The position numbers and the translations under genes are program-made. Source: Terriglobia bacterium (GTDB lineage: Bacteria; Acidobacteriota; Terriglobia; Acidiferrales; UBA7541). From it: a stretch of 64,000 nucleotides of DNA. How positions within the stretch are numbered: the first letter of the stretch is position 1; each line of letters starts with the position of its first letter. The notes below the pieces were generated by a model. The model saw only the letters and a program-made list of their open reading frames with translations, was not told where the DNA came from and did no database searches. Of the stretch, positions 24,614-43,232 are shown in pieces. The DNA is taken from assembly GCA_020072805.1 (NCBI GenBank), contig JAIQGC010000009.1:62001-126000 (forward strand), read 5' to 3'.

Positions 24614-24670
24614 GGAAAGATAGTTGCGCGGCAACGCCGGGTATCGCAGGGGCAATGCGGAAATTCTTCC

Positions 24671-25147
24671 CTAGCGGGTGCTTCCGGCGAATTCCGCGGC
24701 CTCCTCGATGCGTTTATAATCCTGGCGCAGCAATAGCTTGGCGATATCCAGCAGAATAATGAGCCTGCCTTTGAGCTTTCCCACTCCTGTCACATACCCG
24801 GACTCCCCGTCGGAAAACATACTGGCGGGCGGCTCCACCTCCGACGAAGGAATCTTCAACACCTCGGAAGCCGAATTCACAAAGAGCCCCAGCAGCCGGT
24901 TTTCCAGGTCCACCACCAGAATGCGGCTCTTCTTGTCCGCATGCAGTTCTCCCAGCCCGAATCTCTTGCGCAAGTCCATCACCGGCACAATTTTTCCGCG
25001 CAGATTGATGACCCCCAGGATTGTCTCCGGGGCGTTTGGAACCGCGGTGATGTTCGGAACCCGGACAATCTCCCGCACCATCGAAATCGGAATCCCGTAG
25101 GACTCCTCTCCGATTCGAAAACCGATTACATGGAAATCATTTGCCAT
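24671..25147 (-). CDS. cheW: Chemotaxis coupling protein CheW, che cluster 1
   Basis: Adaptor of 158 residues linking receptors to CheA. The typical fold is seen in HVIGFRIGEESYGIPISMVREIV, ITAVPNAPETILGVINLRGKIVPVMDLRKRFGL and GKLKGRLIILLDIAKLL. It is placed 16 bases downstream of the receptor gene and 57 bases upstream of the cheR start. It is one of four CheW-like genes in the window and the most canonical of them. Confidence 0.94.
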   Translation of the reverse strand: MANDFHVIGFRIGEESYGIPISMVREIVRVPNITAVPNAPETILGVINLRGKIVPVMDLRKRFGLGELHADKKSRILVVDLENRLLGLFVNSASEVLKIPSSEVEPPASMFSDGESGYVTGVGKLKGRLIILLDIAKLLLRQDYKRIEEAAEFAGSTR

Positions 25148-25163
25148 CCACGGACTCCCCGTC

Positions 25164-27218
25164 CTAGAGACGCGCCATTTCGGCGTATTCTACTTTGTTG
25201 GCCCCGCGCTCATTGCCCTCGCGCCCATTGCCATCGCGTCCGTTGCCATCCCGCCGTGGCGATGTCGAAGGATGCGAAATCTGGCTGCGCCGCGGCTGCA
25301 CCTCGCGATCCAGCACGAACCGGTCCATCGAATCAATCAGCTGCCGCGAAAGCTTGAGCATCTGGTCCGCCGCCGCCGATAGTTCCGTCGAACCCGAAGA
25401 GGACTGCTGCACCATCTCCCTCATCTTGTCCATGGCCCGCACAACCGCCTGGGCCCCGGAGGCCTGCTCTTCCACCGCAGAATTGATCTCCTGGGTGATT
25501 TCCATCAGCCGGCTGGTGGCCCGCGCAATCTGCGATGACCCCGCCGATTGCTCGTTGGTGGCCGCCCCGATTTCCTGGGAAAGCTTGTACACCTCGATCA
25601 CCACGTTGGATATCTTGTTCAGCGCCACTCCCATTTCGTTCCCAAGCGACAGGCCTTCTTCCACCGACTTGGTGCTCAGCTCCATGTTGGACACGGCTTG
25701 CCGCGCCTCGCGCTGAATGCTCTGGATCAGGTCCGCGATTTCCTTGGTGGACTGCGTGGACTTTTCCGCCAGCTTCCTCACTTCGTCCGCCACCACCGCA
25801 AATCCCAGTCCGTGTTCCCCCGCACGGGCCGCCTCGATGGCCGCATTGAGCGCCAGCAGGTTGGTCTGCTCCGCGAGGTCGTCAATCACTTCCACGATCT
25901 TTCCGATGTCATCCGCGCGATTCCCCAGCACATTGATAATCTCCGCCGACGATTGAATCGACTGGTTCGTGCGGCTCAATCCGCTGGTCGCCTTCTCCAT
26001 CGTGGAGATGCCGTTCATCACCTCTTCCCGGGAGCGGTTGGCGATGTCCAGCAGGAGCTTTGCGGTATCCGCAACTCGCTGGATGGATGCTACCATCTCA
26101 TCAATTGACGATGATGTCTCCGCCACGCTCGAGGCCTGCACCTGCGTGTTTTTCACCACATTCTGCACGTTGATGCTCATCTCGTGCATCGTGCTGGTTA
26201 CTTCCTCGATGGCCGATGATGCCTGCACACTGATCTTGGCCGATTCGTCCGCCGCCTGTGCCACCTGGCTCGACCCCGCCGAAACCTGCGACGCTCCATC
26301 GCGCACTTGCCGGACCAACTGCGTCAGTCCTTGCGACATCTGCAGGAACGCGTTTGCCAGCGTGTCCCGCTTGGACCGCGGCACCACTTCCACGCTCAAG
26401 TCGCCTTCCGCGACGGCCATGGACACTTCCGCCATCTCCTTCAGATAGGCCACCAGATTATTGAATGTCGTCGCCAGCGCCCCGATTTCATCGCTGCGGT
26501 GCAAATTGATGTTTTGGTCCAGATCCCCGGAGTCCCCGATCTCCCGCGCCACAAGGATCAGGTGCTGCAGCGGCTCGGAGATGGATTTCACCGTTCCCAT
26601 GGCCACCCAGACCCCCATACACAGTGTGATAATCGTCCCCATCGTCGTAATCCACGTCGCCACTATACTCGCCGTGTCGGACGCCGCCGTGGCTTCCTGC
26701 AGGTGCTTGGCAATCTGCTGGGTTACCTCGTCAAGCACTACCGACGATTTCTTCAGCCAGGAACTGGGGTCCTTCTGCAGGTAAAAAATCTGCAAATCGG
26801 ATACGGTCGCATCCCCGGAGTCCACCTGGTGGCGCTTGGCCAGCAACGGCTTGGCAAAGCTTTCCGCCCAGCCCTGCTCCGTGGCTTCCACTTGAATCAA
26901 CGCCTTGCGCAAATCTTCGCTTCCTGCCTCCATTTCACTCCGCTTGAGCAATTCGGCCATCTCGGCAAACCCCCGAGTGACTTTTTCCTCGTCGTTCGGA
27001 TCTCCGCTCAGCAGGAAGTTGTTCAGATTCACTCGGCTGGACATGATGTCGAAGCGCACTTTCTCGATGATTCTGTAGCTGCTAAGCGCCGCCGAAGCAT
27101 CCGCACGCGTCGAGCGGGCCTTGACCGCCGCCCCCACGTTCACCAGGAACAGGATGAACAGAACCGCCAGGATGGCTCCGAACCCAAGGTAGATTTTTTT
27201 TCCTATCGTCATATCCAT
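25164..27218 (-). CDS. Methyl-accepting chemotaxis protein, transmembrane
   Basis: Receptor of 684 residues. A first membrane helix (about 9-31) and a second (about 186-210) enclose an all-helical periplasmic sensor domain of about 155 residues. A HAMP domain (about 212-265) and a long cytoplasmic coiled coil follow. The CheA/CheW-binding hairpin tip, [23 protein letters not shown], is canonical. The tail (about 655-675) contains Gly-Asn-Gly-Arg-Asp pentad repeats encoded by a 15-base tandem (about 25203-25256), then NKVEYAEMARL; it may be a flexible tether. ATG 27218 is chosen; an in-frame ATG lies two codons later. First strictly chemotactic gene of the operon. Confidence 0.94.
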   Translation of the reverse strand: MDMTIGKKIYLGFGAILAVLFILFLVNVGAAVKARSTRADASAALSSYRIIEKVRFDIMSSRVNLNNFLLSGDPNDEEKVTRGFAEMAELLKRSEMEAGSEDLRKALIQVEATEQGWAESFAKPLLAKRHQVDSGDATVSDLQIFYLQKDPSSWLKKSSVVLDEVTQQIAKHLQEATAASDTASIVATWITTMGTIITLCMGVWVAMGTVKSISEPLQHLILVAREIGDSGDLDQNINLHRSDEIGALATTFNNLVAYLKEMAEVSMAVAEGDLSVEVVPRSKRDTLANAFLQMSQGLTQLVRQVRDGASQVSAGSSQVAQAADESAKISVQASSAIEEVTSTMHEMSINVQNVVKNTQVQASSVAETSSSIDEMVASIQRVADTAKLLLDIANRSREEVMNGISTMEKATSGLSRTNQSIQSSAEIINVLGNRADDIGKIVEVIDDLAEQTNLLALNAAIEAARAGEHGLGFAVVADEVRKLAEKSTQSTKEIADLIQSIQREARQAVSNMELSTKSVEEGLSLGNEMGVALNKISNVVIEVYKLSQEIGAATNEQSAGSSQIARATSRLMEITQEINSAVEEQASGAQAVVRAMDKMREMVQQSSSGSTELSAAADQMLKLSRQLIDSMDRFVLDREVQPRRSQISHPSTSPRRDGNGRDGNGREGNERGANKVEYAEMARL

Positions 27219-27855: not shown

Positions 27856-28010
27856 GTCTCAACCGCTCCGTAATTCCCGCCTCTAAATCTCACTCTGAGA
27901 TGTTTGCGACTTTTGCCGAGGGTTGCTCATAGGACAACGCCCATTCCATCCATCTTGACTCAAACTGAGAAAACCCGATACGGTTACACTGCAACGGTTC
28001 AAATTGAGAC
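27856..28010. promoter_or_regulatory. Cluster of activator dyad sites upstream of che operon 1
   Basis: Four related elements: GTCTCA half-site (27856-27861), TCTCA-CTC-TGAGA (27888-27900), CTCA-AAC-TGAG (27959-27969) and TTCA-AAT-TGAGAC (27998-28010). They lie about 120-275 bp upstream of the -24 element, a normal distance for sigma54 activators. All match the model GTCTCA-N3-TGAGAC, whose perfect copy is at 35017. Confidence 0.62.
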
Positions 28011-28125
28011 ACACGCTGCCCCCGACCCCTTGCGTGTCACTAAAAAATCGTCTTCGTCACGTCCTTCTGCCCTCTCAGGAGTTCCTCGAGGTGTACGTCA
28101 ACCCTCCGCTCGCGCGGAAGAATTG

Positions 28126-30396
28126 ATGGACCTGGCTCTCGACGCCGCTCAGGCCAGGAGTCTCCCCGATTTTCTTCGCAACTTTGCGGGACGCGCGGGC
28201 CGCATGCTGGACGCGCAATGGTCCGCTGTGGCGGTTTACGGTCAGGATGAAACGCAGCTTTATTCCAACGCTCCCAGGCAAACCGGCACGCTTCCTGCCG
28301 GAGACTTCTTCGCCAAGGCCATTCTCGACGTCGCCGCCAAATCCCAGGAGGAAATCTTTATCCTCCCCTTTGACGCTCCGGAATTCTCTCCACAGGGCTC
28401 GTCCGGCCAGCATCTGGAAGCCATCGTCGTGCGCATCGATTCGAGTGAAGGCGAGCGCCTGGGCTGCATCTGCCTTCTACGCAAGCCCCAGCCGGTCGAG
28501 GAAGCCGATCGCCGTCTGCTCCAGGCCCTGGCCAGCCATGCGGCTCTTTCCCTCGTCAATTTCCGCCGTTTTTCTCAACTCGAACACTCCAAACGGCAAT
28601 GGGTCGAGGACATTGACGCCATCACCGACTATATTGTGGTCCACGACCGTTCCTGGCGCATTCTCCGCACCAACCGTTCTCTTTCTCTCGTCCTGGGCGC
28701 TGAACCCGCGGCTCTTGTCGGCCAGCCCATGAACCGCCTGCGGGCCATTTCTGGCAGCGGCAGTTCGCTCCCCTGCCCACTGTGCCGCGACCCCCACCGG
28801 GCCCACGAAGAGTTCATGTTCACCGCGGATCAGAGCACTTTTCTCGTCTCCACTTCCCGCACCTCTCACTCCGCGGAAAAAGACGAACGCACCATTCACG
28901 TCCTCAAGGACATCACCGACCGGCTGGAAGCCGAGCGCCGCTATCGCGATCTCTTTAACAGCATTCAGGAGGGGCTGTTCTTCGCCACCCCCGAAGGCCG
29001 CTTCGTCGACGTCAACGAAGCCATGGTGAGCATGCTCGGCTACGGCTCCCGCCGCGAACTCCTGCTCGCCGACGTCAGCAACCATCTCTATCCCGATCCC
29101 GGCTCGCGCAAGCGCGTCCTCCAGGCCCTCGCCCATGGCGGAGTGCTCCGCAATCATGAAGAAACCCTGCGCCGCAAGGACGGTTCTCTCCTCCATACCC
29201 TTCAGAATCTCACCGCGGTGCTCACCCCCCGAGGAGAAATCTTGCAAATTCGCGGGCTCATGCTGGATGTCACCGAACAGCGCCTCTTTCAAGCCCAGTT
29301 GCAGCGCGAGCGCGACTTCAACCAGAAAATCCTGAACACCACCCAAAGCATGATTCTCGTTCTGGATACCGCCGGTTTGATTGCCTATGCCAACCGCCGC
29401 TGCTACGACGTTGGTTACCGGGAAAGTGATCTCATCGGCCATCGCCTTGTCGAATGGGTCGAACCCAATCAGCGCAGGGAATTCGATGAAGCCCTGCGGC
29501 TCACCGCCCAGGGCCACCAGATGGAAAATATCGAAATCCGCCTTCGCCGCAGCGATGCCTCCCTGGGCCACTTCTCCGTCAGCTTCAGCCCCATGCGCGA
29601 TGAACAGGCCGTCGTCAACAACATCGTCGTGGTCATGACCGACATTACCGACGCTACCATTCTCCACGCCAAACTCGCTCATTCCGAGAAAATGGCCACT
29701 CTCGGCCAGTTGGTCTCCGGCGTGGCCCACGAGGTCAATAATCCCCTCGCCGCCATTCTCGGCTTTACCGACCTCCTTCTTGAAAACCCCGCAATTCCCG
29801 AGGATGCCCGCGGAGAATTGCGCATCATTCTCCAGGAAACTCAGCGCACCAAGGTCATCGTGCAGGACTTGCTCAGCTTCGCCCGCCAGCGCCCCGCCCG
29901 CCGCGAACCGGTTCAGCTGAATGCCGTGCTCCGGCAGACCATCAAGCTGCGCAACTACGATTTTGAAAGCCACGGCGTTGAACTCATCGAATCCCTCCAG
30001 GACAACCTGGGCTCCGTCCTCGGCGACCCCCAGCAGCTTCAGCAGGTTTTCCTTAACATCCTGAATAACGCCTATGACGCCGTTCAGGAAGCCGCGCGCC
30101 CCGGCCGCATCGAAGTCCGTTCTTCGCAGATCGGCCAGGAAATCGAAATTACGGTCACCGACAATGGCAGCGGCGTCGCCGACCCCGTGCGCATTTTCGA
30201 CCCCTTTTACACCACCAAGCCTCCGGGCAAGGGCACCGGCCTGGGCCTCAGCATCTGCTACGGCATTATGAAGGCGCATAACGGCGAGATTCTCTGCTGG
30301 AATAACACCGCCGGCGCAGGCTGCACCTTCGTGGTCCGCATTCCCGTCTCTGCCGAGCCCGCTACCGCCTCCGCCGCGATGGAGGCAGGCCGTTGA
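28126..30396 (+). CDS. GAF/PAS sensor histidine kinase
   Basis: Cytoplasmic-looking kinase of 756 residues with no membrane helix. Order: GAF domain (about 5-145), three PAS domains (about 150-270, 280-390 and 400-520), HisKA with His535 in SGVAHEVNNPLAAIL, and an HATPase with LNILNNAYDAVQ, DNGSGV and GKGTGLGLSI. The second cysteine-containing PAS (SLPCPLCRDPHRAHEE) could bind a metal or cofactor. ATG 28126 is chosen because GGAAGAA lies 5 bases upstream; the frame stays open back to TTG 27904 through the dyad-site region. It couples directly to the receiver gene and NtrC-type regulator downstream, which are its likely partners. Confidence 0.9.
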   Translation: MDLALDAAQARSLPDFLRNFAGRAGRMLDAQWSAVAVYGQDETQLYSNAPRQTGTLPAGDFFAKAILDVAAKSQEEIFILPFDAPEFSPQGSSGQHLEAIVVRIDSSEGERLGCICLLRKPQPVEEADRRLLQALASHAALSLVNFRRFSQLEHSKRQWVEDIDAITDYIVVHDRSWRILRTNRSLSLVLGAEPAALVGQPMNRLRAISGSGSSLPCPLCRDPHRAHEEFMFTADQSTFLVSTSRTSHSAEKDERTIHVLKDITDRLEAERRYRDLFNSIQEGLFFATPEGRFVDVNEAMVSMLGYGSRRELLLADVSNHLYPDPGSRKRVLQALAHGGVLRNHEETLRRKDGSLLHTLQNLTAVLTPRGEILQIRGLMLDVTEQRLFQAQLQRERDFNQKILNTTQSMILVLDTAGLIAYANRRCYDVGYRESDLIGHRLVEWVEPNQRREFDEALRLTAQGHQMENIEIRLRRSDASLGHFSVSFSPMRDEQAVVNNIVVVMTDITDATILHAKLAHSEKMATLGQLVSGVAHEVNNPLAAILGFTDLLLENPAIPEDARGELRIILQETQRTKVIVQDLLSFARQRPARREPVQLNAVLRQTIKLRNYDFESHGVELIESLQDNLGSVLGDPQQLQQVFLNILNNAYDAVQEAARPGRIEVRSSQIGQEIEITVTDNGSGVADPVRIFDPFYTTKPPGKGTGLGLSICYGIMKAHNGEILCWNNTAGAGCTFVVRIPVSAEPATASAAMEAGR

Positions 30397-30793
30397 AGCC
30401 AATCCCCGCGAAAGCAATGCAAGAGCCAACCCGCATCCTGCTCATCGAGGACGAGCCTTCCGTCACCGCTTTCCTCTGCGCCGCTCTCGAACGTTCCGGC
30501 TACCGCGTCGAACCGGCCCACTCCGGCGCGGAAGGAATCGAGCGCCTGGCCTCCGGCAACTTCGGCGGAGTCATCTCCGACATCCGCATGCCCGGCAATG
30601 TCAATGGCGCGGACGTGCAAAGCTGGATTCAGCGCCACCGCCCGGACATGTGCAAGCGCTTGATCCTCATCAGCGGCGATACCGCCAACCTCGAAACGCA
30701 GGAGCTGCTCGCCCGCTGCGGCGCGCCCTTTATCGAGAAACCCTTTCGAGTCCAGCATTTACTTTCCATCGTGGAGAAAACCTTCGGAAAACC

Positions 30794-30797
<4 letters not shown>
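30393..30797 (+). CDS. Single-domain response regulator between kinase and sigma54 activator
   Basis: Receiver protein of 134 residues: acidic pair in LLIEDEPSV, phospho-acceptor Asp63 in GVISDIRMPGN, Thr/Ser region LILISGDTA and Lys in FIEKPFRV. No output domain. The start is TTG 30393, overlapping the kinase stop (TTGA) with GGAGG 7 bases upstream; ATG 30417 is an alternative without a clear ribosome site. It overlaps the next gene by ATGA. It may act as a phosphate sink or relay partner competing with the NtrC-type receiver. Confidence 0.88.
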
Positions 30798-32230
<1,433 letters not shown>

Positions 32231-32282: not shown

Positions 32283-32361
32283 CCAAATTGAGACGGCCGA
32301 GATTCTCGCGCATCCCTTCCGCGAGACAGTTTCGTGAGACAATCCTGTGTCACCCTGAGAC
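32283..32361. promoter_or_regulatory. Activator dyad sites upstream of the 32.55-kb operon
   Basis: Two dyads, CCA-AAT-TGAGAC (32283-32294) and GTGTCA-CCC-TGAGAC (32347-32361), plus a half-site TGAGAC at 32335-32340. They lie 85-163 bp upstream of the -24 element at 32446, in the gap after the NtrC-type gene. Confidence 0.62.
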
Positions 32362-32445
32362 GGGCGTATCTGTCAAGTTCCCACCCTCGTCCTTAACCCT
32401 CTATTTTTCAGTACCCTAACATCTCCCTCTCCTGATCTTCCCTTT

Positions 32446-32459
32446 GGCTCCCAGCGTGC
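32446..32459 (+). promoter_or_regulatory. Sigma54-type promoter of the 32.55-kb operon
   Basis: TTTGGCTCCCAGCGTGCTTG contains GG at 32446-32447 and GC at 32458-32459 with ten bases between. Expected start is near 32470, about 80 bases before GTG 32552. The -12 core CGTGCT matches the promoter at 35151. Confidence 0.62.
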
Positions 32460-32551
32460 TTGTTTCCCTGTGGGATCTATCCGTTCATCCTGCTCCGCTT
32501 CCCTGCGGGCGGGAGACCTGGAAGATCCACACATACGGGACGAGAAACCGA

Positions 32552-32902
32552 GTGAAACCAACGGGTGAAGCGGTCGTAGCAGGCCGGGAGCCAGCATGCA
32601 CCGAACAACTGGTGCGCTTCTTCCCGCAAGCCGTCGCGCTGCGGGTTGCGGTGCAGGTAACCGCACTGCGTCCGGGCAGAACCAGGCTTTCCGAGCGCAC
32701 CATCATTGAATACGGCTCCTCGGACAACGCCATTTTTCTCAGCAATTTGCCGCTCGAATTTGATGACCGCGTTTTGATCGAATGCAATCCCGGCCCGGGG
32801 CGCAACAAGGCCGCCGTGATTGCCGTGCAGTACCACGAGGGAAAAAAAGCCGTCGCCGTTCGTTTCCTCGATGGATCTCGTGACTGGATAATGCAACCGT
32901 GA
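32552..32902 (+). CDS. Small PilZ-like barrel protein
   Basis: Protein of 116 residues whose second half looks like a degenerate PilZ-type barrel: RTIIEYGSSDNAIFLSNLPL, then DRVLIECNPGPGRNKAAVIAV and KKAVAVRFLDGSRDW. The RxxxR and D/NxSxxG c-di-GMP motifs are not intact, so ligand binding is doubtful. GTG 32552 is chosen as it lies downstream of the predicted sigma54 start; the open frame upstream (to 32444) would lie inside the promoter. The stop overlaps the next start (GTGA). First gene of an operon with two further unfamiliar genes. Confidence 0.68.
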   Translation: MKPTGEAVVAGREPACTEQLVRFFPQAVALRVAVQVTALRPGRTRLSERTIIEYGSSDNAIFLSNLPLEFDDRVLIECNPGPGRNKAAVIAVQYHEGKKAVAVRFLDGSRDWIMQP

Positions 32903-34335
32903 CCACCCTATCAAAAACCGCCCTTCCTCCAAACGTCAAGCCCACGCAGCGCCCCAACCCGCAGTGGGTGGAAGCGCGCTCCGTCTTTCCAATTTACCTG
33001 GCCATCGCCAAGCAGGTTGGTGCTCCCATCCCAGTGGGCGCCGACAAGAAACCTCTTCCGGAAATTCCCAGCGCGGAGCTCTTCGGCCAGGTTCGCACCT
33101 GGCTGGACAAAATCGACCAGATCGTCCAGCCTCATCAACTGCGCCAGCTGCTCCAGGTCACCATGCTCAACGCCAGCGAGGGCGGATTGCGCGCCATGAT
33201 CCTCCGCTACCTGCGCAAGACGGCCAAGGAGACCCTGGATCGCGACAAGATCGATTTCCTGCTGGTGCAGTACTTCGTCCTCTGCGCTCCCCCGCAGGTT
33301 TACCATGACGCTCTCGGCCTGGAAACCGTGGCTCAGGTCATGCGCCCGGTCCTCGGTTCCGTCGACCCCACGCCCCTGGAATGGTGCGCCCCGCTGGAAA
33401 CGATGATTGCCTCGATGCAGGCCTGCCGCAGTCTTCGCGACATGCTCAAGACCAGCTTCATCCTGGAAGGCCGCCGCGTGAAAGAAAAAGCCGGAGGGAT
33501 GTTCTATGACCCCACGGCCCTGCTGTCTTTCATCCGCTTTAACTTTTTGGTCCGCCGCACACTGATCGAGCTGATGCACGCCGATTTGCAGGCCATTCGC
33601 ACGGCCCTGGGCGCTCTCTCCGACGCGCACGTAAAATCCCTGGACTGCAAACCCGCCGGCCTTTCTTCCGCCGAGCCGATTCAGAAAATCCTGCAAATCA
33701 CCAAGGAATGGAAACAGCCGTTCCAGGGCGAATACAACGAGCGCACCGTCAGCTCCGCTTTCGATAAACTCCTGGCCCTGCGCAGCATTGCTGAACAGGC
33801 CGTTCAATCTCTTCGCGCCGGCCCGCCCAAGAGCGCCCCCGCCGCCACAAAGCCCGCGGCCGCTCAGAAACAGCAGACCCCGTCTGCCTCTCCCGCTCCC
33901 GCCGCTAAACCGAAAGCCGCGGCGCCCCCGGCCCAGATTGATATCGAAGGCAGCATGGAAAAACTCTGGGAACAGCTCATCGCCTCTCCCCCCGAACGTG
34001 GCCGCTCGATGACCTCCGTGGAACTCGGCTCCGCCCGCATTCTCCTTTCCTCCTGGGAAGTTGTCGCTTTCATCAGCGCCGACAGCGCCACCGGCGAAGA
34101 TCTGCGCCGCGCCGTTGCCGCTCGGGCTATTGTCGCCGCCGCCGTGGACGCCGCAAAAAAATCGGGCAAGAAGACTGGCCTGCCTCCGGTCCTTGCCGGC
34201 GCTCGCGCCGAAGTCACCCGTTTGCAGGGCCGCGTGGAAGTCGCCAAGCAATCGAAGGACACCGAAGCCGCCGTCAATCTGGGTATTAGCATCAAGCGCT
34301 TGGCCTCTTCCATTGACGAGGCCGAAAAGGCTTAA
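32899..34335 (+). CDS. Unrecognised 478-residue helical protein
   Basis: I do not recognise this family. The protein is soluble, with no signal or membrane segment. Residues 1-300 are largely helical and rich in Leu (for example QPHQLRQLLQVTMLNASEGG and ACRSLRDMLKTSFILEGRR). A Pro/Ala/Lys linker occupies about 310-352. A second helical domain (about 353-478) ends in an Ala-rich coiled-coil-like stretch (RLQGRVEVAKQSKDTEAAVN). GTG 32899 overlaps the preceding stop. The two-domain plus flexible-linker layout and the location between chemosensory operons suggest a scaffold or adaptor, which is inference. Confidence 0.75.
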   Translation: MTTLSKTALPPNVKPTQRPNPQWVEARSVFPIYLAIAKQVGAPIPVGADKKPLPEIPSAELFGQVRTWLDKIDQIVQPHQLRQLLQVTMLNASEGGLRAMILRYLRKTAKETLDRDKIDFLLVQYFVLCAPPQVYHDALGLETVAQVMRPVLGSVDPTPLEWCAPLETMIASMQACRSLRDMLKTSFILEGRRVKEKAGGMFYDPTALLSFIRFNFLVRRTLIELMHADLQAIRTALGALSDAHVKSLDCKPAGLSSAEPIQKILQITKEWKQPFQGEYNERTVSSAFDKLLALRSIAEQAVQSLRAGPPKSAPAATKPAAAQKQQTPSASPAPAAKPKAAAPPAQIDIEGSMEKLWEQLIASPPERGRSMTSVELGSARILLSSWEVVAFISADSATGEDLRRAVAARAIVAAAVDAAKKSGKKTGLPPVLAGARAEVTRLQGRVEVAKQSKDTEAAVNLGISIKRLASSIDEAEKA

Positions 34336-34384
34336 AGTCAGCGCCGCCGGATATTGTCCGGCGTACCTTGGGGAGCAGCTTGTT

Positions 34385-35068
34385 TTGCGACACACGAATG
34401 TCATTGTTCTTACGGACGAAACCGAGTTCGCTCGCCTGCTGACCGCTTGCTGGCAGGCCGAACGCCACGTCCCGGCCATTGCCGTCCTCAATAGCGAACT
34501 TTGGCTTCGCCAACAGCATCTGCCTTGCGATCTCCTGGTCGTCGGCCCCATTCAGGATGGTCTTCTCCCCTCCATTCTTATCGCCCTCGACCCTTCCATC
34601 GCCGTCATTCTCTGCGCTCACGCCGATCATCGCGAATACTCCGACCTGCGCTCCCGCTATCCGCGCTTTACTCACATTCCCCTGCGCGAAGACTGGGCGC
34701 AAACCCTGCTCCTCGTCGCCGGCGAATCTCTGCGCCGCGTAAAAGCCATACAGTTGGCTCGCAACGCTCAGGAAGAAGCCGCCCAGAATGCTCGCGACGC
34801 CGTCCTCGGGAAATATATGGCCAACATGCAGAACGGCATCAACAACGCCCTGACCAGCGTTTTGGGTAACGCCGAACTTCTCTTGCTCGAACCCGGGCAG
34901 CTCTCCGCGCAGTCCCGCGACCAGGTCAAAACCATTCACAGCATGGCCCTGCGCATCAATGAGGTCATGCAGCGATTCTCATCACTGGTCAGCGAGATGC
35001 GCAGCGCTGAGACGGAGTCTCACAGTGAGACGTTAGACGCCCCTGCAATCACTTTGGACGGAGGGTGA
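34385..35068 (+). CDS. Degenerate receiver fused to a HisKA-like helix pair lacking the phospho-His
   Basis: Protein of 227 residues. Residues 1-120 have a receiver-like alternation (TNVIVLTDETEFARLLTACW, LLVVGPI, AVILCAHADH) but no phospho-acceptor in the usual context. Residues 135-205 resemble a kinase dimerisation domain (GKYMANMQNGINNALTSVLG, then a SLVSEMR end) in which the expected His is replaced (Gln-Asn). No ATPase domain follows. The start is uncertain: TTG 34385 behind GGGGAG is preferred; the frame is open back to 34061 inside the preceding gene. Its last codons contain the perfect dyad at 35017-35031. Probably a non-catalytic dimeric adaptor. Confidence 0.62.
   Translation: MRHTNVIVLTDETEFARLLTACWQAERHVPAIAVLNSELWLRQQHLPCDLLVVGPIQDGLLPSILIALDPSIAVILCAHADHREYSDLRSRYPRFTHIPLREDWAQTLLLVAGESLRRVKAIQLARNAQEEAAQNARDAVLGKYMANMQNGINNALTSVLGNAELLLLEPGQLSAQSRDQVKTIHSMALRINEVMQRFSSLVSEMRSAETESHSETLDAPAITLDGG
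35017..35031. promoter_or_regulatory. Perfect activator dyad upstream of che operon 2
   Basis: GTCTCAC-A-GTGAGAC is a perfect 7-bp inverted repeat, 120 bp upstream of the -24 element at 35151. A further TGAGAC half-site is at 35008-35013. It sits inside the end of the preceding coding region, so it is constrained by both roles. Confidence 0.65.
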
Positions 35069-35109: not shown

Positions 35110-35150
35110 TGAAGTTAGGCCGAACGTTTTGCCAAGGGAACCGGGAAGCT

Positions 35151-35164
35151 GGACACATACGTGC
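35151..35164 (+). promoter_or_regulatory. Sigma54-type promoter of che operon 2
   Basis: CTGGACACATACGTGCTTC has GG at 35151-35152 and GC at 35163-35164, ten bases apart. Expected start is near 35175, 28 bases before GTG 35203. It overlaps an upstream GTG at 35161, which argues that 35161 is not the translation start. Confidence 0.62.
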
Positions 35165-35202
35165 TTCTCTATCCCGTGGAAGAGTCTGTGGAGCTTGGTA
35201 GC

Positions 35203-35565
35203 GTGGACAAGATCATACTGATTGTTGACGATTCACCATCGCAGGTCCGGCTGATGCAGGACCTGTTATCGCACGAAGGCTATCATCCCGTGGGCCTGAA
35301 CGATCCCCTGCGCGTCGAGGAAACCATTACTTCCGAGCGGCCCTGCATGATTCTGCTGGATGTGGTCATGCCCGTGAAAAACGGATTCCAGCTTTGCCGG
35401 GAATTGAAGGGCAATTCGGATTTCAAGGCCATCCCGGTCATCCTGGTGACTTCCAAGAACACCGAGAGCGACAAATTCTGGGGCCAGCAGCAGGGCGCGG
35501 ACGGCTACATCACCAAACCGTTCACCCGCGATGAACTGCTGCGCGCCGTGCGGAGGTTCGTATGA
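35203..35565 (+). CDS. CheY/PilH-like response regulator, che cluster 2
   Basis: Receiver of 120 residues with VDDS, phospho-acceptor Asp53 in CMILLDVVMPVKNG, a conserved Thr in VILVTSKNTES and Lys in GYITKPFTRDEL. This is the PilG/PilH type found at the head of Pil-Chp-like clusters. GTG 35203 is chosen because it is downstream of the predicted transcription start and gives the family N-terminus; the frame is open from GTG 35161. It overlaps the CheW-like gene by ATGA. Confidence 0.88.
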   Translation: MDKIILIVDDSPSQVRLMQDLLSHEGYHPVGLNDPLRVEETITSERPCMILLDVVMPVKNGFQLCRELKGNSDFKAIPVILVTSKNTESDKFWGQQQGADGYITKPFTRDELLRAVRRFV

Positions 35566-36119
35566 GTCCTCTTCCCGGCAAGTTCAATCAGGCCATTGAC
35601 GATTTCCAGTTGTCCGCCGTCAATAGCGAGACCGATGCCCACCTGGAAAAAGAAAATGCCGGCCCGGCCCGCCACGCCTCGCCCGATAAACAGTTTTGCG
35701 TCTTTCGCTGCGGCCGCGAACGCTTCTGCCTTCCCGTCCTCGACGTGGAAGAAGTTGTCGAGTGGCCCCTGCTCACCAGGATCCCTCTCTCTTCCGCTTA
35801 TCTCATGGGCATTTTTAACCTGCGCGGCACCATTGTCCCCCTCGTGGACATTGCCATGACCGAAGGCCGCCGCCCCGGACTCTTGCCCAAGCACGTTGTC
35901 GTCGCCTCCTATCACGAAGGCGAACATCACGATGACATGCGCGTGGGCATCGCCGCCGACGAGGTAATTGGCACTTTTTCTGTGACCTCGGATGCCATGC
36001 TGGAACAGGGGCCGGACAACGTCCCCCACTGCGTGGGCATGCTTCGTCACGATGACCGGCTGGCGCTGATGATCGATCTTCGGCGCTTGCTGGAGGTTTT
36101 TCCGGGCCCTGCGATTTAA
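35562..36119 (+). CDS. CheW-like coupling protein (PilI type), che cluster 2
   Basis: Coupling protein of 185 residues with a 40-residue leader before the CheW fold: CVFRCGRERFCLPVLDVEEVV, then SSAYLMGIFNLRGTIVPLVDIAM and a C-terminal DDRLALMIDLRRLLEVF. It would link the receptor at 36208 to the hybrid CheA at 38597. The start overlaps the receiver stop. An 11-bp hairpin follows in the gap to the receptor gene. Confidence 0.88.
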   Translation: MSPLPGKFNQAIDDFQLSAVNSETDAHLEKENAGPARHASPDKQFCVFRCGRERFCLPVLDVEEVVEWPLLTRIPLSSAYLMGIFNLRGTIVPLVDIAMTEGRRPGLLPKHVVVASYHEGEHHDDMRVGIAADEVIGTFSVTSDAMLEQGPDNVPHCVGMLRHDDRLALMIDLRRLLEVFPGPAI

Positions 36120-36136
36120 CCGTGAACGGTAACACC

Positions 36137-36162
36137 CATCCCCGGCCGGGGGGCCGGGGATG
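36137..36162 (+). other. Strong GC hairpin inside che operon 2
   Basis: CATCCCCGGCC (36137-36147) and GGCCGGGGATG (36152-36162) are perfect complements around a GGGG loop. It lies 18 bases after the CheW-like stop and 46 bases before the receptor start. No U tract follows, so it looks like an RNA-processing or stability element, or a partial attenuator, rather than a full terminator. Confidence 0.6.
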
Positions 36163-36207
36163 AGTTGAGGATGAACTGATGATGAGCATTCGAAACTGGA
36201 GGAAGTC

Positions 36208-37662
36208 ATGAAAGCGAGACTGAGTTCCACAATCTGGGCGTTGGTCATGTGGAACGCTACTGCATTTTTCCTGATTCTGGCGCTGGCCTATTACGCCGGC
36301 CACGCCGTCGGCGGGGCCGCCGACTTCGGGTCCGCTTCCGGATCCGCGAAAGGAGCTCTCGCGGCAGCGGGGGTTCTCGCGCTGATTTCCATATTTACCG
36401 CCTTCAGCACCCTCAGCAAGCGCATCCTGCAGCCCGTCGAGGAGCTTTCCAACTTCTCCGAACGCCTGGCTGCCGGCGACCCGCGCGCCCGCGCCGATGT
36501 CAGCACCGGCGACGACCTCGGCTACATCGCGGACAATCTCAACCGCGCCGTCGTCAAGGTGGCCAAGGCCGCCTCCAACCAGGAAGCCAGCGAAGTTCTC
36601 CAGCGCAGCATTACCGAACTGCTGGCCGTCATCAACCAGGTGGCCCGCGGCGACCTCAGCCAGCGCGGCAAGGTCACCAACGACGCCCTCGGCAATGTCG
36701 TGGACTCCATCAACTTCATGCTCGACAACTTTTCCAAGGTTCTCGAGCGCGTCCGCAAGGCCGCTATGGAAGTCAACGGCAGCGCCAACAACATTCTCCT
36801 CGCCGCCGACGAAATGCAGGCCGGCGCCACCCAGCAGGACCAGGAAATCACCAACACCTCTTCCGCCGTGGAAGAGCTTACGGTTTCCATGAAACAGGTT
36901 TCCAATAACGCCGAAGCCAGCGCCGAAGCCGCGCGCCGCGCCCTCGACGCCGCCGAACAGGGCAACCGCGCCGTGCGCGACACCCTGGAAGGCATGCAGC
37001 GCATCCGCGCCTCGGTGCAGGCCACCGCCAAGAAGATCAAGTCTCTCGGCGACCGCTCTCTGGAAATTTCCGAAATCATCAACGTGATTAACGACATCAC
37101 CGAGCAGACCAACTTGCTGGCCCTCAACGCCGCCATCGAAGCGGCCCGCGCCGGAGAAGCCGGCCGCGGTTTCGCCGTCGTCGCCGACGAAGTCCGCAAA
37201 CTGGCCGAACATTCCCGCAGCGCCACCAAGGACATCGCCGCGCTCATCAAGGCCATTCAGGCCGAGACCAACGAGGCCGTCGTGGTCATGGAAGAAGGCA
37301 CCAAGGAAGTTGAAGGCGGCGCCCAACTGGCCGATCAGGCCGGACGCGCCCTCGACGCGATTTCCAGCGTCGTTCGCCAGTCCGCCGAACTCGTCCAGGA
37401 AATCTCTCTCGCTTCCAAACAACAGGTGCGCGGCACGGAAGGTGTCGCCCACGCCATGCAGATCATCTCCGGCATCACCCGGCAAACCTCGCAAGGCGTT
37501 CGCCAGACCGTGGGCACGGTCAGCCAGCTGGTCAAGCTCTCCGATCAGTTGAACGAAGCCCTGGCTCAATTCCGCGCCTTGTCCAAGCCTGGTTCCCCCG
37601 ATGCCAGTGACAATTCCACGGCCGCCCAGCACCTCCCGGTTCCGGCCGGAGCAGTCCGCTAA
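36208..37662 (+). CDS. Methyl-accepting chemotaxis protein (PilJ-like), che cluster 2
   Basis: Receptor of 484 residues with two membrane helices close together (about 10-30 and 46-66) and almost no periplasmic sensor domain, then HAMP-like region(s) (about 68-180) and a signalling coiled coil. The tip [23 protein letters not shown] is canonical. With only about 15 residues between the helices, it probably senses membrane, pilus or cytoplasmic cues rather than an external ligand. GGAGGAAG lies directly upstream of ATG 36208. Confidence 0.93.
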
Positions 37663-37706
37663 AAAAGCAGGAACTCAGGCCCCGGTGAAATGATCGGCGC
37701 GGAAAA

Positions 37707-38600
37707 ATGGGCACGATGAACGAAAACGAACGAAGGACGGCGGAAGTCACCGAGCGGGATCTTTCGGAGGTTCGCAAATTGATTGAAGAGCGCACCGGCA
37801 TTCTCTTTGACCAATCGCGCGAGCGCTTCTTCTCCACTCGTGTGCGCGAACACGCCAGGGAAAAGGGCTTTGCCAGCGGCGCCGAACTGCTCAAGGCCAT
37901 GCTCCGCGCCAACACCGAATACGAAGCCATGCTCGAAAAGCTCCTCACCCAGGAGACTTCCTTCTTTCGTTATCCGGCCGTCTACCAGGCCCTTGAAAAG
38001 CGCATCCTCCCCGAATTGCAGATCAAAAAATTCTGGAACAACCCCCGCACCCTGCGCATTTGGAGCGCCGGCTGTTCCACCGGCGAGGAACCCTATTCCA
38101 TCGCCATCACCCTGCTCGACACTCTTTCCCTGGCCGACGCCTGGAATATCGAAATTCTGGCCACCGATGTCGGCCGCCAGGCCCTCAAAATCGCCGAAGC
38201 CGCCACCTACTCCGCCCAGCGCACTCTTAGCGTCAGCGAAGCCCAGTTCGCCAGTTATTTCACCAAAGTGAATGAGGGCCAGCAGGTTAAGCCGCGCATC
38301 CGCAAGATGATCACCTTCGCCCAGATGAATCTCGCTCAGGCCGTCTATATGGGCCGCATGGACCTGATCTTCTGCATGAACGTGCTCATCTATTTCTCCG
38401 AGGAAAAGCGCAACGCCCTCATTCAGCGCTTTTATGACACCCTCGAACCAGGCGGCTACCTCCTTCTCGGACATTCCGAATCCTTGTCCAAGGTGCCCGT
38501 AAAATTCCAGGCCATCGTTCTCAACGAATGCATTCTTTACCGCAAGCCGCTTCCCGGTGATCTTCAGCAGCCGGAGCTTGTCACGGAGGGCCGCGCTTGA
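37707..38600 (+). CDS. cheR: CheR-type methyltransferase (PilK-like), che cluster 2
   Basis: SAM-dependent methyltransferase of 297 residues. The N-terminal helical part contains RTGILFDQSRERFFSTRV. The catalytic part has ETSFFRYP, the SAM site RIWSAGCSTGEEPYSIAI, EILATDVGRQAL, LIFCMNVLIYFSEE and GGYLLLGHSESLSKV. ATG 37707 or 37716 could be the start. It overlaps the CheA hybrid by TTGA and is the second CheR in the window, presumably specific to the PilJ-like receptor. Confidence 0.93.
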   Translation: MGTMNENERRTAEVTERDLSEVRKLIEERTGILFDQSRERFFSTRVREHAREKGFASGAELLKAMLRANTEYEAMLEKLLTQETSFFRYPAVYQALEKRILPELQIKKFWNNPRTLRIWSAGCSTGEEPYSIAITLLDTLSLADAWNIEILATDVGRQALKIAEAATYSAQRTLSVSEAQFASYFTKVNEGQQVKPRIRKMITFAQMNLAQAVYMGRMDLIFCMNVLIYFSEEKRNALIQRFYDTLEPGGYLLLGHSESLSKVPVKFQAIVLNECILYRKPLPGDLQQPELVTEGRA

Positions 38601-41584
38601 GCCTTCCGAGCCAAGAAGCCGTCAGCGTCTTCCTCCAGGAAGCCTCCGAGCACCTGCAATATCTGCGGGAGTACTCGGGCATCCTGGCGGAATCCGGCGC
38701 TCCTCGCGAGGATCTCGACCGGCTCTTTATCGCCGCGCACACCCTCTCCGGCTCATCGGCCAGTTACGGCTTTCCCCGCTTCTCCGAAATTTCCGGCAAG
38801 CTCGCCCACATTTTTCAATACGTTCTCAATGCCCCGTTCAACGCCGACCTTCACGGCCCCCTCACGGAATTCATCTCCGACGGCATTTCCGTGCTCGAGA
38901 GCAACCTCCTCGAGATCAGCGACACCGGCAAGGAACTCATCGACGATATCGAAGCCTTCAAGGAACGCTACACCTTCGCCTTCCCCGCCGAGGCCCCGCA
39001 ACCTCCGATTTCCCTCCCGCAATCTCCCGCCGAAGCGGAGCCCGAGTTCGCTCCGGAGACCGGCGCCGCCACGGGTTCGTACTTCGACGCCATGCCCGCC
39101 GACGACGACGTTCCCGGCGAAATCCTGGAATTTTTCCTTCCCGAAGCCGAGGAGCATCTGCAGGTCGTCAGCGACTGCCTCCTCGCTCTCGAGGGCTCCA
39201 ACGACCCCGAAGTCATCAACAAACTTTTCCGCTCCATTCACACGGTCAAGGGCTCCGCCGCGCAAGTCGGCCTGAAGCGCCTTGGCGCAATCGCCCACCG
39301 CATCGAGGACATGATCGGCCGCATGCGCGAGGGACTCTTGCAGCCCTCCCCGGACGTCGTGGATGTCTGCCTGGAATCCATGGACGTCTTGAAAAAGTGC
39401 GTCCACCGCCAGTGGAAAGACGACGCCGAAATGCGCGTCTCCGTCGATTCCCTTCTCGCCCGCATCGCCGAATACGCTCCCACCGACCCCGAGGACGGCG
39501 AGGAATCTCCCGCCCAGGCTCCCCAGGCGCTGCCGGATGCCTCCGGCGAGGAACCGCAGCACGCCGAAACCGCGCACCTCGCGCGCAATACTTCCGCTCC
39601 CTCCGCGCAGCCTCAATCCAAGTCCGTGCGCATCTCCCTGAACCGTCTCGACCGCATGATGAACAACGTCGGCGAGCTGGTGATCAATCGCACCCGCATG
39701 GTTGGCCGCGTCGCCGAACTGCGCAAGCTGATTGACACTCTTACCTTTTCGAAAGAGCGCCTGGCCGGCAAGGTCTCCGAATTTCAGGACAAATACGAAT
39801 ACAGCCGCGTCAGCGGCACCCGCTTCACCCCCGCTCCCGCAGAGAATAAATGGAAAGAGTCTCCTTCCGCTCCGGCCCTCACCTCCAGCGCCGCCACCGG
39901 CGACGCCACCCTGTGGTCCGATTTCAGCGAACTTGAAATGGACCGCTACGATGACTTCAGCATTCTTTCCCGCTCCATGACCGAAATTTCCGCCGACGTT
40001 ACCGAAGTTCTCACCCAACTCGGCGCCTTCACCGGCCGCGTCCAGAGCGATATCGACGAATTCACCAAGCTGGCCCATCGCCTTCAGGATCAGATCACCG
40101 CCGCGCGCATGGTTCCCATCGGCACCCTCTACTCCCGCCTCACCCGCGCCGTTCGCGACGCCGGCAAATCCTCCGGCAAGCAGGTCGACGTGGATCTCCA
40201 GGGCGGCGACACCGAACTCGACAACAACATCATTCAGCAGATCGGCGATCCTCTCGTCCACCTCGTGCGCAACGCCGTGGCCCACGGCCTGGAATCCCCC
40301 GAAGGCCGCGCCGCCGCGGGCAAGCCGGCCCTCGGCAAAGTCACCATGCGCGCCTATCACCGCGGCAACCATATCTACATTGAAGTCGAGGATGACGGCG
40401 GCGGAATCAATTACGCGCGCGTCAAGCAGACCGCGCTCGACCGCGGCCTCGTCTCCGTCGATTCCGCCGATCGCCTTACCGAACGCGATCTCCGCGAAAT
40501 GCTTTTTCATCCCGGCTTCTCCACCGCCCCGTCCAAGACGGAACTGGCCGGCCGCGGCGTGGGTCTCGACGTCGTGCGCGCCAATTTGCAGGCTCTCAAC
40601 GGTGAAATTGAAATCAATAGCCGCTCCGGCGAAGGCACCCGCTTCACCCTCAAGGTTCCCCTGACTCTGATCATCTCCCCCGCTTTGTTTGTCCGCTGCG
40701 GCGATTCCACCTTCGCTCTTCCCCTCGGCATCGTCGAGGAAATCCGCCGCCTGCGCGCCGATGAAATCGAGGACGTCGGAGGAAAACTTCTCACCAAGGT
40801 CCGCGACATCGTCACGGAAGTCGTGCGCCTCGATTCCTATCTCGGTTTGCCTCCTCTTGAAGCCGTCAACGGTTATTACCGCATGATCGTCGCCAATATC
40901 GGCGATCGCCAGATCGGCCTGGTCGTCGAGGAAGTCCTCGGCAAGGACGAAATCGTCATCAAGAACCTCGGCGAATATCTCCGCCGCGTAAAACTCTTTC
41001 CCGGCACCACCATCGCTCCTGATGGCAGCCTGATTCTCTTGATCGACCTCAACCGCATGGTCTCCAGCGAGCCCGGCGAGCGCCGCGCCATTCAGGCCAA
41101 CGCCAGCGCCGCGCGCATCTTCGCCCCCGGCTCCGCCGCCGTCGCCCGCGGCAGCATTCCCACCGAGGCCATTGACCGCGTTCAGCAGGACCGCGTCGTG
41201 GTTGTCGTCGACGATTCCATCAGCGTCCGCAAATTCGTCGGCCGCATGATCGAAAAGGCCGGCTACCGCGTCAAGATGGCTTCCGACGGCCTCGAAGCCG
41301 CTGAACTCATCGCCCAACAGGGCTGCCATCTGGTCATTACCGACCTGGAGATGCCCCGCATGACCGGCTACGAATTGATGGCCCAGTTGCGGCAGAGTCC
41401 CGCCACCCGGCGCATTCCCGTGATGGTGGTCACTTCCCGCGCCGGCGCAAAACATCGCGACCGCGCCATGAAGGAAGGGGCGGTGGCTTTCTTGACCAAG
41501 CCCGTGCAAGAGGACCAGTTGATTAACGCAGTGGAACAATTGATCGGCGCGGAAGCCGGAACCCTCACCGCGCCGGTGGTGTGA
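38597..41584 (+). CDS. Hybrid CheA kinase with two HPt domains and C-terminal receiver (ChpA/PilL-like)
   Basis: Protein of 995 residues. The first HPt-like domain has His48 in FIAAHTLSGSSASYG; a second canonical HPt has His215 in SIHTVKGSAAQVG. A Glu/Ala/Pro-rich linker, the dimerisation region with NNVGELVINRTRMVG, the ATPase (LVRNAVAHGLESPEGR, DDGGGI, GRGVGLDVVRANL), a CheW-like domain, and a receiver with Asp916 in HLVITDLEMPRMTG follow. The TTG start (38597) overlaps the cheR stop. The layout is that of Pil-Chp/Frz-type kinases that control twitching or other non-flagellar outputs. The stop overlaps the cheB start region. Confidence 0.94.
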   Translation: MSLPSQEAVSVFLQEASEHLQYLREYSGILAESGAPREDLDRLFIAAHTLSGSSASYGFPRFSEISGKLAHIFQYVLNAPFNADLHGPLTEFISDGISVLESNLLEISDTGKELIDDIEAFKERYTFAFPAEAPQPPISLPQSPAEAEPEFAPETGAATGSYFDAMPADDDVPGEILEFFLPEAEEHLQVVSDCLLALEGSNDPEVINKLFRSIHTVKGSAAQVGLKRLGAIAHRIEDMIGRMREGLLQPSPDVVDVCLESMDVLKKCVHRQWKDDAEMRVSVDSLLARIAEYAPTDPEDGEESPAQAPQALPDASGEEPQHAETAHLARNTSAPSAQPQSKSVRISLNRLDRMMNNVGELVINRTRMVGRVAELRKLIDTLTFSKERLAGKVSEFQDKYEYSRVSGTRFTPAPAENKWKESPSAPALTSSAATGDATLWSDFSELEMDRYDDFSILSRSMTEISADVTEVLTQLGAFTGRVQSDIDEFTKLAHRLQDQITAARMVPIGTLYSRLTRAVRDAGKSSGKQVDVDLQGGDTELDNNIIQQIGDPLVHLVRNAVAHGLESPEGRAAAGKPALGKVTMRAYHRGNHIYIEVEDDGGGINYARVKQTALDRGLVSVDSADRLTERDLREMLFHPGFSTAPSKTELAGRGVGLDVVRANLQALNGEIEINSRSGEGTRFTLKVPLTLIISPALFVRCGDSTFALPLGIVEEIRRLRADEIEDVGGKLLTKVRDIVTEVVRLDSYLGLPPLEAVNGYYRMIVANIGDRQIGLVVEEVLGKDEIVIKNLGEYLRRVKLFPGTTIAPDGSLILLIDLNRMVSSEPGERRAIQANASAARIFAPGSAAVARGSIPTEAIDRVQQDRVVVVVDDSISVRKFVGRMIEKAGYRVKMASDGLEAAELIAQQGCHLVITDLEMPRMTGYELMAQLRQSPATRRIPVMVVTSRAGAKHRDRAMKEGAVAFLTKPVQEDQLINAVEQLIGAEAGTLTAPVV

Positions 41585-42702
41585 TGACGATGAGCGCTAG
41601 CGACAACAAGAAGATCCGCGTCCTGGTTGTGGATGATTCCGCCTTCATGCGCAAGGTCCTCGAAGGCATTTTCAATAACGACCCCCAGTTCCAGGTCGTG
41701 GGCATGGCCAAGGACGGCAATGAAGCCATCTCCCTGGCCGAATCCCTCAAGCCCGATGTCATCACCATGGACATCAACATGCCCCACCTGAACGGCATTC
41801 AGGCCACCGAACAGATCATGACGCGCAATCCCCGTCCCATCGTCGTCGTCAGTTCCGAATCCCGCGAAGGCGCCGATGGCGCTCTCCGCGCTCTTGAACT
41901 GGGCGCCATCGAATTTGTTTCCAAGCCCGCCAACGCCGTTGATCTGGACATGAAAAATGTTCAGGAAGACCTCGTTCGCAAGGTGCGCATGGCCTCCAAG
42001 GTCCGCGTCGTCCGCACCGCCGGCCGCCCAAGCGCCCCGCTCCCCAAAGCGGCTCCCGCTTCTTCCGGTGCAATCCGCGCCGCCGCTCCCGCCGAACCCG
42101 ATCAGCGCTTTCCCATCGTTGTCATTGGCGCCTCCACCGGCGGCCCCGCCACGGTCATGCGCCTGGCCCCGGGCTTCACCCGTGAATTCCCCGCTGCCGT
42201 GCTCCTGGTCCAGCACATGCCGGGAACCTTCACCGGACAGTACGCCACGCAACTCAGCGAATTCACCGGTCTTACCGTGAAGGAAGCCGTGCATCACGAA
42301 CGCCTGCTTCCCGGTACCTTGTATATTTGTCCCGGTTCACAGCACATGCGCATCCTTCCTCCCGGCCGCATCGAACTGGATAACAGCGGGCGCATCGCCG
42401 GCTATATCCCCAATATTGATGTCACTCTCGAATCCGTCGCCGCTTTCGCCGGTCCCAATTCTATTTGCGCCATCCTCACCGGCATGGGCAACGACGGCGC
42501 CAAGGGCGCCCGCGCCATCAAGAACGCCGGCGGCATGGTCATCGCCCAGGACGAAGCCACCTCCGTCATCTTCGGCATGCCTTCGGAAGCCATCAAGACC
42601 GGCGCCGTGGACCACATTCTTGCCCTGGACGATATTTACGGCGCCATCGAAAAACGCGTTCTCTCTCTTTCCCGTTCCATGCCCGCGGGAGTCCGTGGAT
42701 GA
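41584..42702 (+). CDS. cheB: CheB methylesterase/deamidase, intact, che cluster 2
   Basis: Receiver plus methylesterase, 372 residues. The receiver is complete: VVDDSAFMRKVLEGIF, Asp63 in DVITMDINMPHLNG, VVVSSESREGADG and EFVSKPANA. After a Pro/Ala linker, the catalytic domain shows GASTGGPATVMRLAP (Ser), VQHMPGTFTGQYA (His) and LTGMGNDGAKGARA (Asp). ATG 41584 overlaps the cheA stop by one base; ATG 41590 is an alternative. It serves as the intact reference for the damaged CheB at 20595-21606. Confidence 0.94.
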   Translation: MTMSASDNKKIRVLVVDDSAFMRKVLEGIFNNDPQFQVVGMAKDGNEAISLAESLKPDVITMDINMPHLNGIQATEQIMTRNPRPIVVVSSESREGADGALRALELGAIEFVSKPANAVDLDMKNVQEDLVRKVRMASKVRVVRTAGRPSAPLPKAAPASSGAIRAAAPAEPDQRFPIVVIGASTGGPATVMRLAPGFTREFPAAVLLVQHMPGTFTGQYATQLSEFTGLTVKEAVHHERLLPGTLYICPGSQHMRILPPGRIELDNSGRIAGYIPNIDVTLESVAAFAGPNSICAILTGMGNDGAKGARAIKNAGGMVIAQDEATSVIFGMPSEAIKTGAVDHILALDDIYGAIEKRVLSLSRSMPAGVRG

Positions 42703-43232
42703 GATTCGCCGCACAACCAGCCGCCGCGGCCGGACGCTCCGAGCAGATGATTCTCTTCCGCATCGGCCAGCAGGTCTTTGCCCTTTCCGCCAGTTCCGTG
42801 CAGGAAATTCGCAGCGCCGATGCTTTTTCCGGGCTATCCGCTCAAGCGGCCGATCCCAGCCTCCGCAAGGTCTCCTTCGTGGCGCGCCGCGGCCGTCCGC
42901 CCCTTTATATCGTCCATGGCGGATTGCATTTCGGCCTCTCTCTCCCCCAGGGATCTCTCGTCTTTCTTCTGCGCAACCGCCGTTCCGCCCTGCGCGTCGA
43001 TTCCATCGAGCGCATGGCCGCCTTTTCCCGCCTCATGGCCCTCCCCAGCGCCTTCTGCGGCGATGAACGCAATTGGTACCGCGGTTTCGTGGCTCTCGAT
43101 GACGGCATCGTCCCCGTAGTCAATCCCGATGGCCTGCTTCGTCAGGACGAACTCGAACTGCTGGACGCGCTCACTTCCGTTGCGCCTCCCGCTCCCGAAC
43201 ATCTTCTGGAGGAATCTCTCGGCACCCTATGA
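42699..43232 (+). CDS. CheW-like domain protein, first of tandem pair
   Basis: Divergent CheW-like protein of 177 residues: ILFRIGQQVFALSASSVQEIR, then FVARRGRPPLYIVHGGLHFGL and GFVALDDGIVPVVNPDGLL. ATG 42699 overlaps the cheB stop (ATGA). It is less conserved than a functional adaptor usually is in the CheA-binding face (no NLRG motif), so it may occupy receptor arrays without activating the kinase. Confidence 0.78.
   Translation: MRFAAQPAAAAGRSEQMILFRIGQQVFALSASSVQEIRSADAFSGLSAQAADPSLRKVSFVARRGRPPLYIVHGGLHFGLSLPQGSLVFLLRNRRSALRVDSIERMAAFSRLMALPSAFCGDERNWYRGFVALDDGIVPVVNPDGLLRQDELELLDALTSVAPPAPEHLLEESLGTL

Follow-up and report, generated by a model that had tools for sequence, protein, structure and literature searches.

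The three genes at 32552-35068 of the 64,000-nucleotide stretch of DNA analysed here (the window), which comes from the 4.0-Mb assembly of a soil acidobacterium whose relatives bearing names include 'Candidatus Acidiferrum', are supported by comparison of related genomes as a previously unnamed, conserved gene set that appears to be sigma54-driven and has no evident catalytic sites. No report of this gene set was found in the literature searched. We tentatively favour the reading that the trio is the direct output operon of the histidine kinase (HK)-REC-NtrC circuit encoded upstream and serves this circuit as a feedback or adaptor module, a proposal that we hold as plausible rather than probable. 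The three genes are:

32552..32902, + strand: PilZ-like protein, 116 aa, without RxxxR and D/NxSxxG, fold putative (alignment, hhalign)
32899..34335, + strand: P478, predicted to be mainly helical, of an unnamed acidobacterial family (alignment, profile, AF2, tree)
34385..35068, + strand: RecHisKA, with a receiver-like domain of putative alpha/beta fold and a HisKA-type helix pair (HisKA matches, alignments)

The PilZ-like reading frame starts with GTG at 32552, has its stop codon at 32900-32902 and overlaps the P478 gene (GTG 32899) by 4 nt; P478 ends at 34335 and is followed after 49 nt by RecHisKA, which starts with TTG at 34385 and ends at 35068. The tight spacing of the three genes given in the preliminary description of this DNA was thus borne out. 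The trio is located after the NtrC gene, which ends at 32230, and before a CheY-first che operon, with 134 nt between RecHisKA and the CheY start at 35203. The neighbouring features are:

27904..30396, + strand: sensor histidine kinase (PAS/HisKA/HATPase; NCBIfam kinase matches, synteny upstream of the trio, DHp likeness)
30417..30797, + strand: single receiver-domain protein, REC (Pfam Response_reg 1.4e-15, position conserved)
30794..32230, + strand: NtrC-type sigma54 activator with REC, Sigma54_activat (8.1e-69) and HTH_8 (1.9e-11) domains
35203..42702, + strand: che operon 2, coding for CheY, CheW, MCP, CheR, CheA (Hpt domains and a C-terminal REC) and CheB (Pfam)

The gene order HK-REC-NtrC-[trio]-CheY-CheW-MCP-CheR-CheA-CheB is the same in 16 of 16 long loci from the genus, and the trio is also found in other genera from two families (L181-L186, L188, L112 and L052), which argues that the grouping is more than chance. 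The three genes are therefore conserved together, which was one of the points on which the preliminary description had staked its proposal. The combination with che operon 2 recurs in L112 and L181-L185, although in L184 a separate REC gene was not called in the otherwise matching locus, and the trio occurs without che operon 2 in L052, L186, L187 and L188. Among 250 genomes of the class, the PilZ-like protein was found in 43 and RecHisKA in 44, with 40 genomes common to both, and in the inspected loci that have both genes a P478-type gene sits between them. Partial arrangements were also seen: RecHisKA lies directly 5' of an MCP gene, without PilZ-like and P478 genes, in L189 and L190, and L121 has a P478-like gene inside a che cluster in which no PilZ-like or RecHisKA gene was called. 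A scan of named genomes gave two loci, and a plasmid search found none.

The preliminary description had also assigned the trio its own sigma54-type promoter, which proved to be real. The predicted regulatory elements are:

32329-32340: imperfect palindrome copy GTTTCGTGAGAC, adjoining the 32347 site
32347..32361, no strand assigned: candidate activator-site palindrome GTGTCACCCTGAGAC (locus alignment, site search)
32444..32460, + strand: sigma54 -24/-12 promoter of the trio TTGGCTCCCAGCGTGCT (alignment of loci)
35017..35031, no strand assigned: second candidate activator-site palindrome GTCTCACAGTGAGAC, within the RecHisKA 3' end, which would serve the CheY operon
35149..35165, + strand: second sigma54 promoter CTGGACACATACGTGCT, upstream of CheY (alignment)

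A strict sigma54 consensus search of the window gave nothing above chance, and the trio promoter was identified by comparison of relatives: TTGG-N10-GC occupies the corresponding position in 31 of 31 loci, in the genus approximately 110 bp before the PilZ-like start, and the element at 32444-32460 is the only exact TTGGC-N6-CGTGCW within the window. The genome encodes RpoN (PF04552, E=8.4e-57). Upstream of the promoter lies a palindrome with the consensus GTNTCA-N3-TGAGAC (also given as GTNTCA-N3-TGANAC). Of the 16 genus loci, 15 have an exact copy upstream of the PilZ-like gene, 96-97 bp ahead of the -24 element (approximately 96 bp in the window), and in other genera the palindrome is found 80-107 bp upstream of the promoter where both could be located exactly. 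It likewise occurs upstream of the trio or of RecHisKA in L052, L112, L181, L182, L185, L186 and L188-L190. The NtrC proteins encoded at the genus loci are 78-85% identical. L187 counts against the favoured reading: its nearby NtrC shows only 41.5% identity, and even its best palindrome site carries one mismatch.

The whole genome contains four exact palindrome sites, two of which are those at 32347 and 35017. In the RecHisKA protein, the latter is visible as the conserved peptide SQxET. Of the 16 genus loci, 14 have a copy of this site, with no more than one mismatch, at -142 to -144 relative to CheY. As the second promoter, aligned as TGG-N10-GC in 17 of 17 loci, would contain the alternative CheY start at GTG 35161, this start is unlikely, and GTG 35203 is the most probable start codon of the operon-2 CheY. 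A third conserved palindrome lies ahead of the HK gene in relatives, with an exact copy at 15 of 16 genus loci; in the window this site is decayed, with a one-mismatch site at 27996, and the true start of the sensor kinase is probably near 28006-28126. In addition to the HK and PilZ sites, a recurring palindrome precedes a gene for a membrane diguanylate cyclase in nine relatives and in this genome. The GGDEF of this enzyme is intact (Pfam and NCBIfam matches), and no clear sigma54 element was established for its gene. Across 14 genus and three other genomes, the palindrome was counted 2-8 times per genome, compared with 0-6 times for a reversed control pattern, so that single unlinked sites mean little. 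The sites in L164, L167, L169 and L170 show no shared target and are probably due to chance, and the site at C27:2331, near an OmpR-type regulator, was not found as a shared target. Outside the window, at L138:6708-8616 (G000:C16 near 52707), the palindrome is followed by the membrane GGDEF diguanylate cyclase gene and then by a canonical PilZ gene. In two genus genomes (L160 and L166) it precedes a pair of genes that are RsbR/RsbS-like (stressosome) by sequence. The arrangement resembles known NtrC-family/sigma54 regulons in its candidate activator, -24/-12 promoters, upstream palindromic sites and RpoN. The literature searched yielded no description of the target operon, of the palindrome or of a regulon made up of a che operon, a diguanylate cyclase and the trio. 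The adjacent NtrC is the obvious candidate activator, and its binding to the palindrome is suggested by adjacency and conservation.

The steady neighbour of the trio is the kinase-REC-NtrC circuit, and RecHisKA offers a possible point of contact with it. HisKA (PF00512) matches 24 of 24 RecHisKA homologues, with a best value of 2e-6, indicating that a DHp helix pair is present; the window protein scores 25.6 bits, just under the gathering cut-off of 26.9. HATPase_c and Response_reg (PF00072) gave no match among the same 24 members. In the receiver-like half, an invariant Gly-Pro (54-55) is aligned with the position of the acceptor Asp, and the sole profile match, over residues 5-100, is the designed protein 6xeh (E=3.7e-4). 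With a profile built from the RecHisKA DHp region, 12 of 12 syntenic sensor kinases gave scores of 22.8-33.0 bits, and the other kinases, a small sample (n=6), did not exceed 13.7 bits. Of the kinases compared, the syntenic sensor kinase thus has the DHp that most resembles the RecHisKA one. Taken with the constant linkage and the shared control, these scores suggest that RecHisKA either contacts the syntenic sensor kinase or descends from it.

From this we infer how the circuit might operate. The activated NtrC-type regulator would bind the GTNTCA-N3-TGAGAC palindromes approximately 96 bp upstream of the sigma54 promoter and switch on the genes for the PilZ-like protein, P478 and RecHisKA; in the genus, its further targets would be che operon 2 (through the second sigma54 promoter), its own HK operon and the membrane diguanylate cyclase gene. 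The trio products would form a non-enzymatic adaptor, in which RecHisKA, a pseudo-receiver joined to a DHp pair, pairs up with the DHp of the initiating sensor kinase and damps or redirects the response. P478 could act as a helical scaffold that carries RecHisKA and the PilZ-like subunit and that couples the circuit to the chemosensory array where an array is co-expressed. A precedent for a response-regulator-like kinase inhibitor in a feedback loop, which we count in favour of this proposal, is Osp of Rhodobacter sphaeroides, a response-regulator-like protein that is expressed under CtrA and closes a negative feedback loop by inhibiting the CckA kinase directly (PMC9430884). RecHisKA is similar to the DivL/Osp regulators in being a receiver-like or DHp-bearing protein without full catalysis, and Osp, too, is made under the circuit that it inhibits. 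It differs in that a pseudo-receiver and a DHp pair are fused and in its sigma54-dependent co-expression with a PilZ-like and an unnamed helical protein. Pseudo-receivers are common and mostly unexplained (PMC12632262).

The less likely, though still credible, alternative is that the trio proteins bind the array formed by the operon-2 CheA hybrid and MCP and link it to pili or to positioning. In all genus loci, as well as in L112 and L181-L185, che operon 2 follows directly on the trio, and the two share regulator sites. Moreover, the trio adjoins a CheR gene in L052 and L188, and the position of RecHisKA directly before the MCP gene in L189 and L190 favours a receptor as its partner and thus counts against a kinase. 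These neighbourhoods keep the array adaptor in contention as a possibility that we rate below kinase feedback. However, G509 (one closed contig), G517, G525 and G142 keep the trio but gave no che-2 MCP orthologue at E 1e-60, and the CheA proteins present in these genomes are only 36-42% identical in the kinase region, which supports the conclusion that the trio is not tied to the che-2 MCP/CheA core. The placement between two che systems, as first described, is therefore correct for the window and does not extend to these four genomes, and the idea that the trio exists to link the operon-2 CheA hybrid to pili was not supported. The analysis yielded no evidence of contacts with TadZ, pili or DUF4388. 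Che system 1, at 19610-27218 (- strand), codes for MCP, CheW, CheR, CheA, a CheB-like protein, CheY and a CheX phosphatase and adjoins the HK gene in most loci.

One might further speculate, with rather less confidence, on an anti-kinase or adaptor complex in which RecHisKA and the kinase form mixed dimers, P478 serves as the scaffold and the PilZ-like protein provides a tuning that does not involve c-di-GMP, so that one sigma54 circuit would set the array, the diguanylate cyclase and its own kinase output.

The history of the RecHisKA histidine bears both on kinase feedback and on a further alternative. The family motif is LGRYMxxM(K/R)H(S/N/T/G)xNNALTSxLGNAELLLLEPG, and in the window protein the phospho-acceptor His is replaced by Asn (MQNGINNALTS). 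The preliminary description, which took RecHisKA to be a receiver-HisKA protein without the His and without an ATPase domain, was accurate for this copy, but the loss of the His is no family trait: the first comparison covered 34 other homologues, all of which have the His, and Asn is found only in this genome. In a wider set, the His is replaced by Pro in three g189 genomes (L181-L183) and by Ser in L187, and it is present in L184-L186 and L188-L190. Mutation or assembly error is an unlikely cause of the missing His, because both the Lys and the His codons differ from those of relatives and the His has been lost elsewhere too. As three separate lineages have lost the His and kept the NNALTSxLGN helix, it is the helix pair and not the phosphoryl group that selection appears to hold. 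This supports a non-catalytic adaptor, and this part of the original proposal stood, in line with the lack of evident catalytic sites, whereas the CheA hybrid-to-pili link suggested as the purpose of the adaptor was not supported. On the other hand, the retention of the His in most homologues means that phosphotransfer may be important there, which speaks against the feedback reading. RecHisKA could then be a phosphotransfer protein with a DHp and no kinase domain, similar to Spo0B or ChpT, that passes phosphate among HK, REC and NtrC. We regard this as improbable, since the gene and its helix motif persist in the window, the three g189 genomes and L187 with Asn, Pro and Ser, respectively, and an acidic residue following the His is absent in the aligned copies.

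For P478, no match above threshold was obtained in Pfam, NCBIfam, PADLOC or PDB with the protein, remote members or the family profile, in agreement with the original description of a 478-residue protein without a recognised family. Weak matches to DUF7463, Amuc_1100, DUF2935 and IMEF cargo had low scores, were not common to the members and were rejected. The family profile matches 48 of 297 genomes of the phylum, mostly outside chemosensory loci, and the neighbouring genes vary (hpt/RidA-like, recG-like and pilin-like genes, named by sequence recognition). In L124 and L125, from a distant acidobacterial family, the parent-family homologues adjoin pilin-like (FSLIELL) genes, and in L117 and L114 they are followed by genes that are FHA-domain-like by appearance. 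An alignment of 23 homologues revealed a conserved N-terminal domain (approximately residues 20-245), followed by a variable Ala/Pro-rich linker and a C-terminal domain, with L69, D73, R82, R115, K117, D119, R192, K195, P205 and L225 being invariant. A tree of 47 members groups the trio-type proteins in a single clade (17 rows, support 100/100) on a long stem of 1.37 changes per site, so that P478 is a specialised offshoot of a family that is older and has no name; one of the 17 rows, L118, is a second P478 copy outside a trio. That P478 instead carries over an activity of its own from its parent family, with the trio recruited for housekeeping or stress and not for signalling as an adaptor, seems very unlikely to us: the much wider distribution of the family, its varied contexts and the invariant charged residues R82, R115, K117, D119, R192 and K195 would fit this idea, but the trio-type proteins are a single, well-separated clade and all but one of them are found in a signalling context. 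Structure predictions were made from the window, L042 and L043 sequences only, and models from three rows are poor. The P478 model consists mostly of helices at low confidence (pLDDT 62.9) and gave no significant Foldseek match; the same is true of the Foldseek search with the PilZ-like model (pLDDT 50.7).

The PilZ-like protein is likely to be of PilZ ancestry, judged by profile alignment. None of 24 members matches PF07238, but hhalign against canonical PilZ domains encoded in the same genomes gives an in-register alignment of 85 columns (P=5.6e-4, probability 30%), so that the earlier label of a degenerate PilZ-like protein is best retained as provisional. The c-di-GMP motifs are missing from the alignment, with no RxxxR before the first strand and E(F/Y)(G/S)xxEHAIF in place of D/NxSxxG, and in contrast to the PilZ domain, c-di-GMP binding is not expected.

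In Pil-Chp systems, the gene order is pilG/H-pilI-pilJ-pilK-chpA-chpB-chpC. Che operon 2, with the order CheY-CheW-MCP-CheR-CheA-REC-CheB-CheW, is similar, and a degenerate PilZ protein is part of the Pil-Chp output too. To our knowledge, no P478 or RecHisKA homologue belongs to Pil-Chp, and the trio differs further in that it survives without the che operon. The components of this chemosensory system of type IV pili (Tfp) have been described (PMC12632253).

The comparisons provide a testable regulon logic, consisting of activator, sites, promoters and targets, for the little-studied and mostly uncultured Acidobacteriota, in which one sigma54 circuit appears to tie a chemosensory operon to a diguanylate cyclase. 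They also define an unnamed protein family, that of P478, which is spread through the phylum. Few mechanisms are understood for pseudo-receivers and DHp-only proteins, and a conserved operon beside its likely kinase turns their function into a testable question.

Two minor observations concern the window itself. The two CheW-like proteins, the receiver-DUF4388 protein and the further receiver protein encoded at 42699-45668, in the continuation of operon 2, are reminiscent of PatA/PixG-type outputs. Lastly, the P478 branch of the window measures 0.43 in the tree and is approximately twice as long as those of its genus neighbours (0.16-0.23); because this long branch coincides with the lost RecHisKA His and the decayed HK site, selection on the trio module may have been relaxed or altered in this genome.
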